This document shows, piece by piece, positions 25,026 to 31,641 of a DNA stretch of 64,000 nt. Below the pieces are notes generated by a model. That model saw only the letters and a list, made by a program, of their open reading frames with translations, made no database searches and was not told the DNA's origin. How positions within the stretch are numbered: the stretch's first letter is position 1; every line of letters starts with the position of its first letter. The DNA lies in the NCBI RefSeq assembly GCF_000092845.1, contig NC_014150.1:1450919-1514918 (forward strand). The letters run 5' to 3'. A program made the translations under genes and the position numbers. Source of the DNA: Brachyspira murdochii DSM 12563. Its GTDB lineage: Bacteria; Spirochaetota; Brachyspiria; Brachyspirales; Brachyspiraceae.

Positions 25026-25478
25026 ATGCAGAAATTATATGATAATCTATATGTAGGCGGCGATAGCGACTGCAGAAAATTTAAAGGTGCTATAGTTCAT
25101 GCCTGTCAAAGTTGTTTTGTTAATGGCGTACATGGTAATATAGGAGATAAAAAAGTTTTTGAAAGTAATAATGATCTTTATTTGAATCTGCTAGATATAT
25201 CAAGTCTTTCATTTGATTATGCTTTTCCAATGATAAAAAGATCCATTGAGTTTATAGATGAACATATAAAAGATATGGAAGTACTAATACACTGTAATTT
25301 CGGAATGTCAAGGTCTCCTTCTATAGCATTATTATATATGGCGAGAAAAGGATATATAAAAAATAATTCTTTTAAAGATGCATTAAATGATTTCCGTAAA
25401 ATATACAAATATTATTCACCCGGTATGGGAATGTATAATTATTTTGACAGATACTGGAAAGAAATTATGACATTTTAA
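25026..25478 (+). CDS. Dual-specificity protein phosphatase
   Basis: Cysteine-dependent protein phosphatase of 150 residues. The P-loop is VLIHCNFGMSRSPSIALLYM with nucleophile Cys90 and Arg96 (HCx5R). LLDISSLSFDYAFPMIKRSIEFIDEHIKD before it fits the DUSP fold and general-acid loop. It is cytoplasmic and transcribed alone from its own promoter. Substrate unknown. Confidence 0.92.
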   Translation: MQKLYDNLYVGGDSDCRKFKGAIVHACQSCFVNGVHGNIGDKKVFESNNDLYLNLLDISSLSFDYAFPMIKRSIEFIDEHIKDMEVLIHCNFGMSRSPSIALLYMARKGYIKNNSFKDALNDFRKIYKYYSPGMGMYNYFDRYWKEIMTF

Positions 25479-25538
25479 AAAATAAATAATAAAGTATTAA
25501 ATATAAAATAAATGAGATTTAAATAAAGTTTAGAACTT

Positions 25539-25640
25539 TACTATCACTCCCCTCCCTTTAAACTTTTTAATAATATCTGTTATTTCGGCATAGTTTTTAT
25601 ATCTTCACTTTTACTGTTATTGGAACACCCACCCAAGCGA
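25539..25640. repeat. Partial copy of the dispersed C-rich element
   Basis: CTCCCCTCCCTTTAAACTTT through CACCCACCCAAGCG repeats the right half of the 211-bp elements at 25774-25984 and 30777-30987, including TTTTACTGTTATT before the end. It lies just before the full copy. Confidence 0.7.
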
Positions 25641-25664
25641 TTTTTTTATTAAAAGTGCCAATCA

Positions 25665-25747
25665 ACGCACGGTTAATTAGTTTTTATATATAAAATAATT
25701 ACTAATTCTAATTTGTATTATATATAAATGTTTTATGCTCCGTGCGT
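25665..25747. repeat. 83-bp element bounded by ACGCACGG/CCGTGCGT
   Basis: An AT-rich core is closed by the inverted repeat ACGCACGG (25665-25672) and CCGTGCGT (25740-25747). A related 82-bp element with the same ends lies at 30668-30749, again directly before a 211-bp element. Confidence 0.7.
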
Positions 25748-25773
25748 GGCAAAAAGTGCAAATATAAATAAAG

Positions 25774-25984
25774 CTAGGGTGGGGTTGCTTTTTATATGAT
25801 GACTTACAAATTTAATTAAAATATAAAAGAAAAAATAAAGCTTTTAAATCTAAAAGGGCGGGGATTAAAACAAAATTTTGAAAATTATTTTAACTCCCAC
25901 CCTCTAAATTCTTTAACTTATACTGTTATTTGTAACTTCTTTTATTTCTTTAGCTTTTACTGTTATTCTGGCTGCCCACCCAAG
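25774..25984. mobile_element. MITE-like 211-bp noncoding element, copy 1
   Basis: Bounded by CTAGGGTGGG and CCCACCCAAG, a near-perfect terminal inverted repeat. It is 211 bases long, exactly as the copy at 30777-30987, and shares blocks such as ACAAATTTAATTAAAA (or ACAGATTTAATTAAAA), AAATAAAGCTTTTAAAT, AAAAGGGCGGGGATT and CACCCTCTAAATTCTTTAA. No coding frame of note. The inner GGGCGGGG and CCCACCCTC blocks can also pair. The rest of the gap 25479-26108 has no gene. Confidence 0.6.
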
Positions 25985-26108
25985 TGCGTTTTAAATTTGT
26001 AATGCTATTACCTAATCTTTATGAGTAATGAAAATTAGAATTATTAATGAATTTTTATTCAAACAATCTACACTACGTGCGTATAAAATAATATATTATT
26101 TGAAATTA

Positions 26109-27221
26109 TTAATTGCTCTCTTTATCAGATGCTTTACCAGATAAAGCTTCTTCTATTGTAGTACCACTCTGACTGCTGTCATCACCTACTATAGATTTAG
26201 CTAAGTTCTTTATTTTATCACTTGCAGAAGATGCAGCTAATGTTTTTATAGCCTCATACATATTTCCAGTAGGAGGAGAGTCTTTATACAAATTAAGTAT
26301 TTCTGTAGTAATAGCCTCAGAATTATCATTTTTAAGTCTGTAAAGCAAAAGCTCCTCAATTTCAGGTTCAGATTTATAATTATTCAAAGCCTTAATAGCG
26401 TATATTCTTACAGAATCGCTGTCATTTTTGGCAGCTTCAATTATATTTTCTTTTACATCTCCATAAGCACTATACTCTGGAAGTATATATATAACTCTTG
26501 CTGTAATTTCTGGTAAATCCTCTGCCAATAGTTTTTGAAGTATTTCATAATTTTCAGCACTAGGATAAGCCCCCAACGCTACAACCCCCATATAACGCAC
26601 CAAAGCAGGCTCTCCAGCATTCTGAGATGCATTACGGCAAATTTCTTCTCCTTTAGGGTTTTTAGTCTCGCTGAAATATCTTAATATTTCAACTTTCGTA
26701 GAAGAGGCAGCTGTATTATTTGTATATTTTTCAAGAAGATAATCAGCAGCAGCTTCCGATTTCATAGCACCTAATGCATTTATCATACTATCTAGTACTA
26801 ATCCTGAAGCATTTGTAATCTCTGCCATTATACCGCTTTCAAACTGAATATCCGGATAAATAGAACATAAATAATAAGCCTCTTTTCTTACATTATCATT
26901 TTCATCTTTTATAGCATATTCTATTATAGTTTTTGCATTATCATTTTTTATTTGTTTAAAGAAATTGATAATTTCGGTTTTTACTCTGCTATTCATCTCT
27001 TCTGGGTAATAATTTGCAAGCATAGCAATATCCGCTTCATTTTTTGTTCTTCTTATTTTACTGATGGTTGATATTTTCTGTGAAGGAGTTCCGTATTTAA
27101 AAGCATTTTCATATTCTGCATTAGGCAGGTAAGATACTGTATTTTCTATTTCATTAGTTTGAGAAAAAGCTGAAAATGATACCGCTATTAAAAATAAAAA
27201 ACTAAAAATAATATTTTTCAT
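26109..27221 (-). CDS. Exported HEAT-repeat protein
   Basis: Exported 370-residue protein. Residues 1-20 are a signal peptide (MKNIIFSFLFLIAVSFSAFS). The body is HEAT-like: ENDNVRKEAYYLCS, SEAAADYLLEKYTN, PALVRYMGVVALGAYPS and SDSVRIYAIKALNNY recur at 30-40 residue intervals. Such repeats form a curved scaffold for protein partners, here in the periplasm. It lies downstream of two OmpA-type lipoprotein genes on the same strand but is separated from them by a terminator. Confidence 0.85.
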   Translation of the reverse strand: MKNIIFSFLFLIAVSFSAFSQTNEIENTVSYLPNAEYENAFKYGTPSQKISTISKIRRTKNEADIAMLANYYPEEMNSRVKTEIINFFKQIKNDNAKTIIEYAIKDENDNVRKEAYYLCSIYPDIQFESGIMAEITNASGLVLDSMINALGAMKSEAAADYLLEKYTNNTAASSTKVEILRYFSETKNPKGEEICRNASQNAGEPALVRYMGVVALGAYPSAENYEILQKLLAEDLPEITARVIYILPEYSAYGDVKENIIEAAKNDSDSVRIYAIKALNNYKSEPEIEELLLYRLKNDNSEAITTEILNLYKDSPPTGNMYEAIKTLAASSASDKIKNLAKSIVGDDSSQSGTTIEEALSGKASDKESN

Positions 27222-27246
27222 AAATAAAAATTTCCTTAAAAGTTTA

Positions 27247-27276
27247 AAACCCCCTTTTATTTCTAAAAGGGGGTTT
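27247..27276 (-). terminator. Terminator after the OmpA-lipoprotein pair
   Basis: AAACCCCCTTTT and AAAAGGGGGTTT form a 12-bp perfect stem with a 6-base loop, 24 bases after the OmpA lipoprotein stop on the minus strand, followed by AAACTTTTAAGG. The T-run on the minus side is weak, so termination may be partial and the HEAT gene may still be reached. Confidence 0.7.
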
Positions 27277-27300
27277 ATTTTTATATTTTAGAAATAAAAA

Positions 27301-27903
27301 TTAATTTCCTTGATATGTGCTTTCTTGTCTTACATCAATCTGAGATATATATGTATTATACTTAACCATATCATCATCATTTTCTATTATGACAAACTCA
27401 TATCTTCTCAAATCATTTTGAGTAGGATATTCCGGAAGTGCTTCGCCCAAAGGACTTTCTATTACTCTCTCAGAAGCAACACCTTTATCTAAAAGGTATT
27501 TTTTTCCGTTTTTAGCCCTTACAACCGATAAATTGTAATTGTAAGGATAAGCTATTCCTCTATTGCTTGTATGTGCTTCCAAAATTATATTTGCATTAGT
27601 ATTTTTATCCAAGAACTCCATTACTTGTGCAAATGTTATATCAGCAGATGCAGGTATATTAGTTTCTACTAATTTAAATATAATTTTCGGATTAGTCTCA
27701 AGTACCCTTCCTCTGTCAGTATCTCTTATATAAGTATTTTCAGGCAAATAAAGCACAGCAGCTTCTTTCTCTTCGTTTTCTTCTTCAACTGCTGGGGTAG
27801 GCTCTTCTGCTATAACGACATCTTCAGGAGTACTGCTTTCAGGGGTACTCTTACAGGCTATGACAAAGATCAATAAAGTAAAAATAAATATGATTTTTTT
27901 CAT
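27301..27903 (-). CDS. OmpA-family lipoprotein (first of two paralogues in the list, second in the operon)
   Basis: Lipoprotein of 200 residues with lipobox VIAC (Cys17). A Glu-rich linker follows. The C-terminal OmpA-like peptidoglycan-binding domain has LEAHTSNRG, YNLSVVRAKNGKKYLLDKGV and RRYEFVI. Such proteins anchor the outer membrane to the cell wall. It is 35% or so similar by eye to the gene upstream (27925-28542), which it follows by 21 bases. The pair is a tandem duplication and probably one operon. Confidence 0.88.
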   Translation of the reverse strand: MKKIIFIFTLLIFVIACKSTPESSTPEDVVIAEEPTPAVEEENEEKEAAVLYLPENTYIRDTDRGRVLETNPKIIFKLVETNIPASADITFAQVMEFLDKNTNANIILEAHTSNRGIAYPYNYNLSVVRAKNGKKYLLDKGVASERVIESPLGEALPEYPTQNDLRRYEFVIIENDDDMVKYNTYISQIDVRQESTYQGN

Positions 27904-27924
27904 TATATTGTTAAAACCTCGGCA

Positions 27925-28542
27925 TTAATTTGTTTCTTTATTAATGTCGACAGTTTTAGCAAAATCGTTATATTTTTTCAAATCATCTTCATCCATTATA
28001 ATGATAAATTCACATCTTCTATTTTCTTTAAGGGTAGGATATTCAGGCAAAGCCTCTCCAAAAGCATTTTTTAATAATCTGCTGTTTTCAGAGCCTAATT
28101 TTATTATATAATTAAAGCTAGTATCTGCCCTTCTTTGAGAAAGCTGATAATTATAAGGTGCAGGGCCCTCTTTGCTGGAATTACCTTCTACCATTATTCT
28201 TATATTTGGATTATTTTTTATTATTTGATAAACTAAATTATAAGCCTCTTTATAGCTTCCTATTTCTACAGTATTATCAAATCCGAATTTTACTTCATAA
28301 GAAGCATTCCCACTTTTGCCTATATCTGTTTTAGATTTAGGATCATGAAGAACTAATACCTTACCTCTTGGTGTTTCTTTAACTGCGGCTCCGTCAGGTA
28401 AGGTATAACCTTTAGCATTTTGATTATTAGCTTCTGTTGTTTTAAATCCGCTTCCTTCTTCCGGACCAGTGGCTACAGGGGCACTTTTACATGCTGCTAT
28501 AGATATAAAGATTAAAGACATAATTAAAATTATTTTTTTCAT
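27925..28542 (-). CDS. OmpA-family lipoprotein (operon leader, paralogue)
   Basis: Lipoprotein of 205 residues with lipobox IAAC (Cys18). The OmpA-like domain has MVEGNSSKEGPAPYNYQLSQ, RRADTSFNYIIKLG, FGEALPEYPTLKENRRCEFI; the EALPEYPT-x4-RR stretch is shared with the downstream paralogue. The Asp/Arg pattern is close to the peptidoglycan (diaminopimelate) site but the Asp of the canonical TD is replaced by Ser, so binding should not be assumed. AAGGAAAAGTA lies before the ATG. Confidence 0.88.
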   Translation of the reverse strand: MKKIILIMSLIFISIAACKSAPVATGPEEGSGFKTTEANNQNAKGYTLPDGAAVKETPRGKVLVLHDPKSKTDIGKSGNASYEVKFGFDNTVEIGSYKEAYNLVYQIIKNNPNIRIMVEGNSSKEGPAPYNYQLSQRRADTSFNYIIKLGSENSRLLKNAFGEALPEYPTLKENRRCEFIIIMDEDDLKKYNDFAKTVDINKETN

Positions 28543-28780
28543 GATTACTTTTCCTTAGTATCATATTTTTATATTGTTACATGAAAGTTAAAACAATTAA
28601 CATAACACATAAATTATAACAAATTCATAATTATATTTGTAAAATATAACTATTATATGTTATAAAACTTTATCGTATTTATATTTAAACATGATAACAA
28701 AAAAATAATTAATACTTTTATATAAATTTAATTAACTTATTATTATAAACAATATATACTTAAATCATAAGATATTATAA

Positions 28781-30499
28781 TCATTTTTTATTATTTTGAT
28801 ATATACACTCGAATGTGTCGCCTAAATTTTTCTTTTTTGCTGAAGCATTATATATTTGGGAAAGTAATTTATTTTTACTGATAAATTTTAAATTAAATAT
28901 ATCACAAAATCTGCTATAATAAATACTTTGATTCTCTAGGCTTATACATTTTAATGAATATTTTGATAAAAATATATCCAAAGATTTAGGATTAGCCTCA
29001 AAAGCATGATCGCTTGGTACTATAGGAAAATAATTTTTATTAAATCTTCCGCTAATACCATAACCATTAGGGGTAGCAAAAGCTAATATACCATCATCTT
29101 TTAGAGAATATAGTATACGTTCTAAAATATTTTCAAAATTATATATATGCTCTATAACATACCAAGCTGTTATTATGTCGTATTCTTTTTCTTTATACTC
29201 AAAATCAAGAAGCGAACAGTTATGAACATTGAGTTTAAGGGTATCTCGGCAGTATGATGAAGCATATTCGCTTATTTCTATACCTTCAGTTTCATAACCG
29301 AATTCTCTTGACTCATTAAGAAAAAAACCCATAGCACTTCCAATATCAAGAACTTTACCCTTTGGCTTTAATTTTTTTATTTTTTCTAAACGTCTTCTTG
29401 CTAATGCTGTTAGATTTTTGCTGTCTTCTTCATAAGTCTTACCATATTGATTTTTATAATCCTCTACAAAATATTTGGAAGAATAATCAGTAAACGGAGA
29501 AAGAAAATATTTTCTAAACAAAGTATGACATTTTAAGCAGCTGTAAAGATTAGACTCTATATTTCTATTTTTCATCTCTATATTGGAACTTCCGCAGAAT
29601 GGACATTTTATATCTTTAAAATCTTTTATATTATCTATTATTGTTTTGATACGCTCGAGAGATTTTTCGGTATTTATAGACTTGCCGTTTTCCAAATACT
29701 TACTTTGAGTATCTTTATTAAATAAAAAATCTTTTAATTTTAAAACTGCTTCGTCAGTATTAACATTTTCAAAAAAACCCAAATTAAAAAATAATTCATC
29801 TTTGCTCATAGCCAAATCATTATGATATTTTGTAGGAGAAAGAAGCACTGTAGGTATTGAAGCTTCTATACATTCAAATGCTGTAAGACCAAAATATGTT
29901 ATAACTGCACTGTAGGGACTTACAAATATATCTGGGCTAAAATCTTTATACTTTATATTACTGTATCCGCTTTCTCCGTCCCTTTCTATAAGAACAAAAT
30001 TTTTATCTTCTATTTTACTTATAATATCTATTGCCTTCTTTTTCAAATCATTATTAAATCCTAAATAAAGAAGAACTGGAGCATTTTCATCATATTTAGG
30101 TTTTATATTAGAATTAAGTATAGTAGCTATAAAAGGTTTTATATTAACTTCTTTAGAACTATCTATATTTGGGAGCATCTCTATTACTATATCAGCAAAA
30201 ACTCTTTCACTTCCTACACTGTCTATTATTATAACATTACTTATGGTTTTTAATTCTTTTATGAACTTAGATTCTACTTCTCGGCTATCTACTATTATCA
30301 AATACGGATTTAATGATTTTATTTCATTATATTTACAGCTTTTAATAGTTTTATCTTTAAATAAATCGCTGTTATCGTTAATAGAAGAAAATATAAAATT
30401 ATAGTATTCTTTAAGCCTGTCCGCAATAAATTTCATACGGGTAATATGTCCAAACCCGTATATTGTACCTATATCTGTTATTATACATATATTCTGCAT
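28781..30499 (-). CDS. PseG-like glycosyl hydrolase/transferase fused to SAM methyltransferase
   Basis: A 572-residue two-part protein. Residues 1-~285 resemble the PseG/SpsG family (GT-B fold): GFGHITR at 15-21, LIIVDSREV, IIIDSVGSER, and the C-terminal site VITYFGLTAFECIEASIPTV with LAMSKDELF. Residues ~295-330 are a zinc ribbon (CPFCGSSN, CLKCH). Residues ~335-572 are a class I methyltransferase: motif I VLDIGSAMGFFLNE, GIEISEYA, and WYVIEHIYNFENIL. PseG enzymes release UDP in nonulosonic acid synthesis; the fusion suggests synthesis and methylation of a surface or flagellar sugar. That role is inference. Confidence 0.8.
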   Translation of the reverse strand: MQNICIITDIGTIYGFGHITRMKFIADRLKEYYNFIFSSINDNSDLFKDKTIKSCKYNEIKSLNPYLIIVDSREVESKFIKELKTISNVIIIDSVGSERVFADIVIEMLPNIDSSKEVNIKPFIATILNSNIKPKYDENAPVLLYLGFNNDLKKKAIDIISKIEDKNFVLIERDGESGYSNIKYKDFSPDIFVSPYSAVITYFGLTAFECIEASIPTVLLSPTKYHNDLAMSKDELFFNLGFFENVNTDEAVLKLKDFLFNKDTQSKYLENGKSINTEKSLERIKTIIDNIKDFKDIKCPFCGSSNIEMKNRNIESNLYSCLKCHTLFRKYFLSPFTDYSSKYFVEDYKNQYGKTYEEDSKNLTALARRRLEKIKKLKPKGKVLDIGSAMGFFLNESREFGYETEGIEISEYASSYCRDTLKLNVHNCSLLDFEYKEKEYDIITAWYVIEHIYNFENILERILYSLKDDGILAFATPNGYGISGRFNKNYFPIVPSDHAFEANPKSLDIFLSKYSLKCISLENQSIYYSRFCDIFNLKFISKNKLLSQIYNASAKKKNLGDTFECIYQNNKK

Positions 30500-30667
30500 G
30501 AAAACTAACTATTTCTAAATTTTTTCATAAAATGATGTTAGATATTATATAATAAAAAAATATAATTACAAACAAATATTTCATTTAGAAAAACTTAAAT
30601 ATTTATACTTGTTTTTACTCTTGATTAGCTCAATTTACAAATGTTTTTAAATTTAAAACATTCTTTA

Positions 30668-30749
30668 ACGCACGTTCAATCGATCACTATATATAAATTG
30701 ATTATTAATTCTAATTCACATAATATATAAAATTTCATGCTGCGTGCGT
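30668..30749. repeat. 82-bp element bounded by ACGCACG/CGTGCGT
   Basis: ACGCACG (30668-30674) and CGTGCGT (30743-30749) enclose an AT-rich core (ATTGATTATTAATTCTAATT) that matches the element at 25665-25747. It again lies directly before a 211-bp element. Confidence 0.7.
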
Positions 30750-30776
30750 GCACTAAAGTCATAAATTTAAATTACA

Positions 30777-30987
30777 CTTGGGCGGGATTGATTTTGATGT
30801 AAAGGTTTACAGATTTAATTAAAACATAACAAAAAAATAAAGCTTTTAAATATAAAAGGGCGGGGATTTAAATAAAGTTTGAAAATTTCTTCTCATTCCC
30901 CACCCTCTAAATTCTTTAATTTTATACTGTTATTAAAAAAAATTTTTTCTTTTTTAGCTTTTACTGTTACTTTAGCACCCACCCAAG
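30777..30987. mobile_element. MITE-like 211-bp noncoding element, copy 2
   Basis: Terminal inverted repeats CTTGGGCGGG (30777-30786) and CCCACCCAAG (30978-30987) bound 211 bases, the same length as copy 1. Blocks of 15-20 identical bases are shared along the whole length. No coding frame. Nothing else of note is visible in the gap 30500-31209 apart from a second C-rich/GTGCGT region around 31078 with partial similarity to the ends. Confidence 0.6.
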
Positions 30988-31209
30988 CGTTTTTTAATTT
31001 TTGTAATATTCTTAACTTTATTCTTATATACATAAAATTAAAATACTAAATTCATTGATATAAAAAATACATTCTGCGTGCATAGAATAAAGTGGGAATT
31101 TAAATAATGCTATGTAAGGGATTACTTTTATTATTTTTTTGAACTGTAACTTTAAATTAAGAGAGAACTATTTTTAGCTCTCCCTTTTTTTAGTAATATA
31201 TATATACTA

Positions 31210-31641
31210 TTAGTCGTCAAATTTTTGTCCCATTAAATGTCCGTCAGAAGTTATAAACAATTCCATAAAATTATTTAATTTCACTTTGTAATTGCCCCAT
31301 TCTTTTTCTGCCTCTATTATTACAGCATTAGGATAAGTATTTTTTATAGTGTTTGCTACAGACTGAGGTAAAGCACTGAAAGGAACTGTGTTGTACTCAC
31401 CGTCTATACTGTTCCACTCTCCATTATACAAAAAGTCTATTTTAGAACCGTTTGATAATTTTACTTCAAATTTTCCGTCATCTCTTTCTTCTTTCCATAT
31501 CTGAGCATTAGGATAAACTTTCTGTATAAAGTTTCTAGCATTCTCTGGAAGTGAAGAAGCGGGAACTATCCAATCAGCAAAAGCACTTGAAGTAGAAATA
31601 ATAGTCAAAGTTATTAATAAAGCAAATAATTTTTTAGTCAT
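31210..31641 (-). CDS. Exported PepSY-like (DUF2874) protein
   Basis: Periplasmic protein of 143 residues with a signal peptide (residues 1-22, ending SSAFA). Two PepSY-like repeats follow: VPASSLPENARNFIQKVYPN with KFEVKLSNGSKIDF, and VPFSALPQSVANTIKNTYPN with NYKVKLNNFMELFI. This is the DUF2874/beta-lactamase-inhibitor-like fold found in Bacteroides and spirochaetes; function unknown. AAAGGAGAT lies before the ATG. It has a strong promoter bordered by a 20-bp palindrome. Confidence 0.88.
   Translation of the reverse strand: MTKKLFALLITLTIISTSSAFADWIVPASSLPENARNFIQKVYPNAQIWKEERDDGKFEVKLSNGSKIDFLYNGEWNSIDGEYNTVPFSALPQSVANTIKNTYPNAVIIEAEKEWGNYKVKLNNFMELFITSDGHLMGQKFDD

Follow-up and report, generated by a model that had tools for sequence, protein, structure and literature searches.

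What is the noncoding composite that occurs twice in the 64,000-nucleotide stretch of Brachyspira murdochii DSM 12563 analysed here (the window)? A sequence-only reading had described, at both loci, an element of 82 or 83 bp followed by one of 211 bp, and had suggested a non-autonomous mobile element (MITE) or, alternatively, a structured RNA. Both composites are present where that reading placed them (Table 1), and mapping of all copies in the genome shows that the two elements are modules of a larger repeat unit, a non-coding near-palindrome of about 350 bp. From left to right, a unit consists of CTCCCCACCC, about 70 nt with two copies of ACTGTTATT, CCCACCCAAG, about 27 nt, the core (ACGCACG, 68 nt, CGTGCGT), again about 27 nt, CTTGGGCGGG, about 75 nt and GGGCGGGG. 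The 82-bp piece forms the core of this unit. The 211-bp module spans the junction of two neighbouring units and is made up of the right half of the first and the left half of the second. Both composites extend further than originally described, into a second, decayed core, and the partial copy reported at 25539-25640 is real, being the left half-unit of copy 1.

Table 1. Parts of the two repeat copies, in window coordinates.
Feature	Positions	Strand	Composition	Basis
Copy 1, whole	25522-26084	+	full unit 25522-25894 and most of a head-to-tail second unit 25874-26084	profile matches, 308 and 98 bits
Copy 1, setting	between 25026-25478 (+) and 26109-27221 (-)		gap between convergent genes	gene calls
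Copy 1, unit 1 outer left box	25547-25556		CTCCCCTCCC	sequence and alignment of 33 copies
Copy 1, unit 1 inner left box	25628-25637		CCCACCCAAG; part of the earlier partial copy	
Copy 1, core (83 bp)	25665-25747		ACGCACG 25665-25671, CGTGCGT 25741-25747	
Copy 1, 211-bp module	25774-25984		unit 1 right half: CTAGGGTGGG ... GGGCGGGG 25856-25863	
Copy 1, 211-bp module, unit 2 left half			CTCCCACCC 25894-25902 ... CCCACCCAAG 25975-25984	
Copy 1, second core, decayed	26005-26082		left ACGCACG lost, right CGTGCGT 26076-26082 kept	
Copy 2, whole	30644-31128	+	core and right half 30644-30888, second unit without right end 30874-31128	profile matches, 160 and 120 bits
Copy 2, setting	between 28781-30499 and 31210-31641		gap between minus-strand genes	gene calls
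Copy 2, core (82 bp)	30668-30749		ACGCACG ... CGTGCGT	
Copy 2, 211-bp module	30777-30987		CTTGGGCGGG 30777-30786, GGGCGGGG 30858-30865, TCCCCACCC 30897-30905, CCCACCCAAG 30978-30987	
Copy 2, second core, decayed	31000-31083		ends in TGCGTGCAT 31075-31083	

Each unit contains three nested GC boxes that are mirrored throughout, the inverted repeats expected of a MITE (box positions were taken from the sequence and an alignment of 33 copies, and pairing was analysed on 88 aligned units). The ends that had been proposed as terminal inverted repeats are nevertheless internal box boundaries of the longer unit, and the 211-bp module of copy 1 begins with CTAGGGTGGG and not with CTTGGG. Copies occur as single units, half-units or head-to-tail tandems with a period of about 350 bp; they end either at the core or halfway along the 211-bp module, and truncation of the mirrored modules occurs at several points, not at a single end. 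The box set and its spacing are the same in the genus-wide consensus. The left boxes (CCCACCC) and the right boxes (GGGCGGG) face each other with a central A/C mismatch that is kept across the genus (for example at 30897-30905 and 30858-30865). The possibility that the 82-bp core is an invertible segment was set aside, the two core types resembling opposite arms of the central palindrome.

Copies are abundant in this genome and in the genus, which disposes of the concern, raised along with the mobile-element proposal, that there might be no others. BLAST returned 52 matches in the 3,241,804-bp B. murdochii genome (best paralogue, E = 5e-98), well above what chance would give, and a profile search of genome stretches resolved 37 clusters, or about 44 when weak places seen by BLAST only are included. 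All 26 Brachyspira genomes gave matches, most of them 20-90, with one or two weak matches each in G001, G003 and G019. Beyond the genus, no convincing copy emerged when 84,980 species genomes were scanned for the repeat pattern (13 non-Brachyspira pattern records and one viral-contig hit do not match the unit profile), and the plasmids and phages searched contained no match to the repeat. In two species, 52 of 53 clusters are strictly intergenic; 14 of the 53 lie in convergent gaps, which make up about 13% of intergenic bases, while tandem and divergent gaps are occupied as well and the clusters have no fixed orientation relative to genes. At HEAT and glycosyltransferase loci, presence is patchy across species. 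The composite belongs to a family of non-coding near-palindromes that lie almost exclusively between genes and occur throughout the genus Brachyspira.

The distribution of this family along the chromosome is far from uniform, and its description depends on where replication starts. According to a published GC-skew analysis (PMC3163572), the origin of Brachyspira lies at a distance from dnaA. We found parS-like sites as a tight pair in each of six genomes tested; in B. murdochii (contig C1), the 1.1-kb divergent gap at C1:1592403-1593535 holds TGTTTCACGTGAAAAA, TTGTTTCACGTGAAAAC and TGTTTCACATGAAACA, the third matched by eye. Coding bias and GC skew, the latter computed like synteny on genome stretches, flip from minus to plus at this gap, which we regard as the putative origin/centromere, about half a chromosome from dnaA in this genome. 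Together, the parS-like sites and the skew flip provide independent sequence support for a Brachyspira origin far from dnaA. Clustering at the terminus, suggested by the position of the copies opposite dnaA, was dropped as an interpretation because GC skew, the parS-like sites and the published analysis all place the origin there.

In four genomes the mean direction of the elements deviates from parS by +80, -75, -9 and +102 kb (p values of the V-test toward parS, 8e-13, 2e-11, 5e-7 and 0.03); these tests are not independent because the genomes share ancestry, and the element lists for three of them (G004, G009 and G010) are best matches rather than full censuses. In B. murdochii, density in successive distance bins outward from parS is 60, 55, 20, 14 and 1.2 per Mb, and both measures confine the family to one chromosome domain. 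The half of the chromosome opposite dnaA contains 98%, 93%, 75% and 52% of the copies in the four genomes (with the same three best-match lists), where the dnaA-to-parS distance is 0.49, 0.40, 0.40 and 0.26 of the circle. Since the mean directions stay near parS while the distance to dnaA varies, the element centre follows parS and not the antipode of dnaA, although the clustering in the B. pilosicoli-like G010 is only weak. A control family of 25 Rpn genes is spread evenly over the B. murdochii chromosome, and clustering is therefore not a general property of multicopy families. In the literature searched, on Brachyspira or other organisms, we found no description of large palindromic repeats marking the origin half of a chromosome.

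We compared 464 kb around the B. murdochii origin (C1:1391001-1855000) with a 780-kb stretch from Brachyspira sp. G79 (G015 C8:1845001-2625000); the two species are about 92% identical. Gene order is broken 62 times around the origin versus four times in about 145 kb beside dnaA; the origin flanks have been reshuffled in blocks of a few kb, whereas gene order around dnaA is collinear, which is the opposite of what would normally be expected. Of the 19 collinear element sites, 18 are occupied in both species, and 73 of 88 mapped flanks adjoin an element in the other species as well, compared with 3-5% of random windows; where the two flanks of an element lie apart in the other species, an element is found at both in 11 of 20 cases. 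The copies are thus often joints at which gene blocks were exchanged, and since flanks keep their elements and collinear sites are shared, they act as exchange points and not as fresh insertions. The flank table contains one closed alternating exchange cycle, linking 1580, 1695, 1476 and 1694 kb in B. murdochii with 2340, 2542, 2544 and 2295 kb in G79, in which the 1476-kb joint is copy 1 of the window and the 2295-kb joint of G79 is a short core remnant. At the G79 counterpart of copy 1 an Rpn gene lies between two elements, as the same gene does at 1694.6-1695.6 kb in B. murdochii. Several exchange partners mirror each other about parS (-190/-186 and +159 kb; -116 and +102 kb). How far a block lies from parS in one species correlates with its distance in the other (Spearman 0.40), most strongly near the parS centre. 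At the 1399-kb locus, the number of units differs by exactly one.

Synteny is broken in 15 of the 25 gaps with an element and in 51 of the 225 without one (odds ratio 5.1, p 2e-4), an enrichment that falls to 3.4 (p 0.014) when only gaps of at least 300 bp are considered and is not clearly significant when counted by HSP junction (14/62 versus 9/66). No element was detected at 48 of the region's 62 breaks, so the repeats are one substrate among others for the shuffling. Other G+C-rich repeats (e.g. GCCAGTAACTTTAGTTGCTGGC) occur at breaks that lack elements of the 350-bp family, at C1:1551303-1551542 and 1659444-1660867.

How, then, should the family be explained? That it is an active MITE with a preference for origin-proximal DNA seems improbable. 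Inverted repeats dispersed between genes are what such an element would leave, and the patchy presence across species is compatible with past dispersal; recent mobility is unsupported, given that all but one of the collinear sites are shared by species about 8% apart and that the comparison with G79 yielded neither a clean empty site nor a target-site duplication, to which the truncation of modules at several points can be added. Two candidate mobilisers were examined. For a RAYT/IS200-type transposase, PF01797 (Y1) had no match in the B. murdochii genome while the controls were positive. The Rpn family (PDDEXK_2, TIGR01784), with 24 loci in B. murdochii (e.g. C1:1694623-1695531) and 0-40 copies per Brachyspira genome, was rejected in this role because its genes are evenly spread and their counts are uncorrelated with element copy number; a single Rpn gene lies between copies in B. 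murdochii and 24 others do not. Integron attC cassettes were likewise discarded, as neither an array nor an IntI was seen and the copies extend across a region of more than 1 Mb about the origin. By length and sequence, judged by eye, the two strongest tyrosine recombinases resemble XerC/D. Three integrase genes (C1:1525184, 1963067 and 2587752) have identical profile scores and 319-aa frames and are probably copies of one insertion sequence. A structured RNA, or a two-way transcription terminator in 3' regions, is slightly less probable still. In its favour, both strands are predicted to fold better than shuffled sequence (z of -5.0 for the minus and -3.7 for the plus strand), the A/C mismatch at the box centre would be a G-U pair in minus-strand RNA, and there is some excess of clusters in convergent gaps. 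Mirrored GC boxes in AT-rich DNA, though, would fold better than shuffles regardless, and the AT-rich arms lose their pairing: over the 88 aligned units it is kept in around half of the cells, covariation analysis revealed no compensatory excess (the boxes, being invariant, are uninformative here), and A-C and G-T mismatches outside the boxes are equally common (330 versus 302), with no strand bias. The repeat had no Rfam match, it also occupies tandem and divergent gaps without fixed gene orientation, and an RNA would leave the origin centring unexplained.

A role for the DNA itself deserves more weight, even if we think it rather unlikely. The repeats would be candidate functional sites that organise or segregate the origin domain through a dedicated protein on the mirrored GC boxes, many of them together gathering or condensing the region much as matS marks the E. 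coli terminus domain. In the same tentative vein, they can be seen as a candidate centromere- or macrodomain-like set of sites that defines an origin domain, with the origin detached from dnaA and recombination reshuffling the domain. Several observations favour such a function: in three genomes the copies thin out steadily away from parS, an evenly spread multicopy family provides the contrast, boxes and spacing are kept across the genus, and elements persist at most mapped flanks. Between orthologous copies the boxes differ at 18% of positions versus 45% of other G/C positions, a comparison of only eight loci with poor alignments; it counts against regarding the repeats as pure passengers, which need not show box conservation. 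On the other hand, the GC boxes have no known binding protein, the copies are very uneven in completeness, with many half-units among them, the B. pilosicoli-like genome is weakly clustered, and copies are all but absent from three Brachyspira genomes.

To the remaining explanation we give roughly even chances: an old repeat family supplies scattered homology for exchange, exchanges symmetric about the origin are tolerated, and the family is thereby centred on it. The family would have dispersed long ago by some route and would now survive as scattered tracts of homology. When two copies recombine, often across the origin from each other, the DNA between them would be inverted or swapped, and because the units are near-palindromic the copies could pair in either direction; the same process would duplicate, shorten and homogenise units. 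Exchanges near the origin would be tolerated, being symmetric for replication, and this tolerance would in turn keep the family origin-centred. We infer that the exchange proceeds by homologous recombination, although a site-specific process could also produce it. Against the exchange reading, copies are 70-90% alike and hence poor RecA substrates, and crossover mapping inside rearranged elements did not resolve them into clear mosaics of the two partner copies. Should the centring be functional, the repeats would represent a DNA-encoded origin-domain marker in spirochaetes; should it be a by-product, it would explain why blocks of a few kb have been reshuffled in the Brachyspira origin region and not in the dnaA region.

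Intergenic repeats of comparable design are known from other bacteria. ERIC/IRU and BIME in enterobacteria and BOX in streptococci are intergenic imperfect palindromes or module mosaics with variable module number, and ERIC is not known to have a transposase of its own. The Brachyspira repeat resembles them in being an intergenic palindrome built as a mosaic with a variable number of modules, but it shares no sequence with them and is set apart by a larger unit, three nested GC boxes, origin centring and exchange joints. REPINs are described as scattered at random through extragenic space (Bertels and Rainey 2011, PMC3116915). The likeness to REPINs and REP doublets with RAYT transposases lies in intergenic, hairpin-capable inverted-repeat doublets with many copies and tandem groups, whereas the Brachyspira unit is about ten times longer, is origin-centred and is not accompanied by a Y1/RAYT family in the B. 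murdochii genome. Near the origin and in the terminus domain, respectively, parS and matS are protein-binding sites of 13-16 bp with known binders. The Brachyspira unit, about 350 bp long and without a known binder, differs from them in these respects and is like them in being a repeated site confined to one domain of the chromosome.
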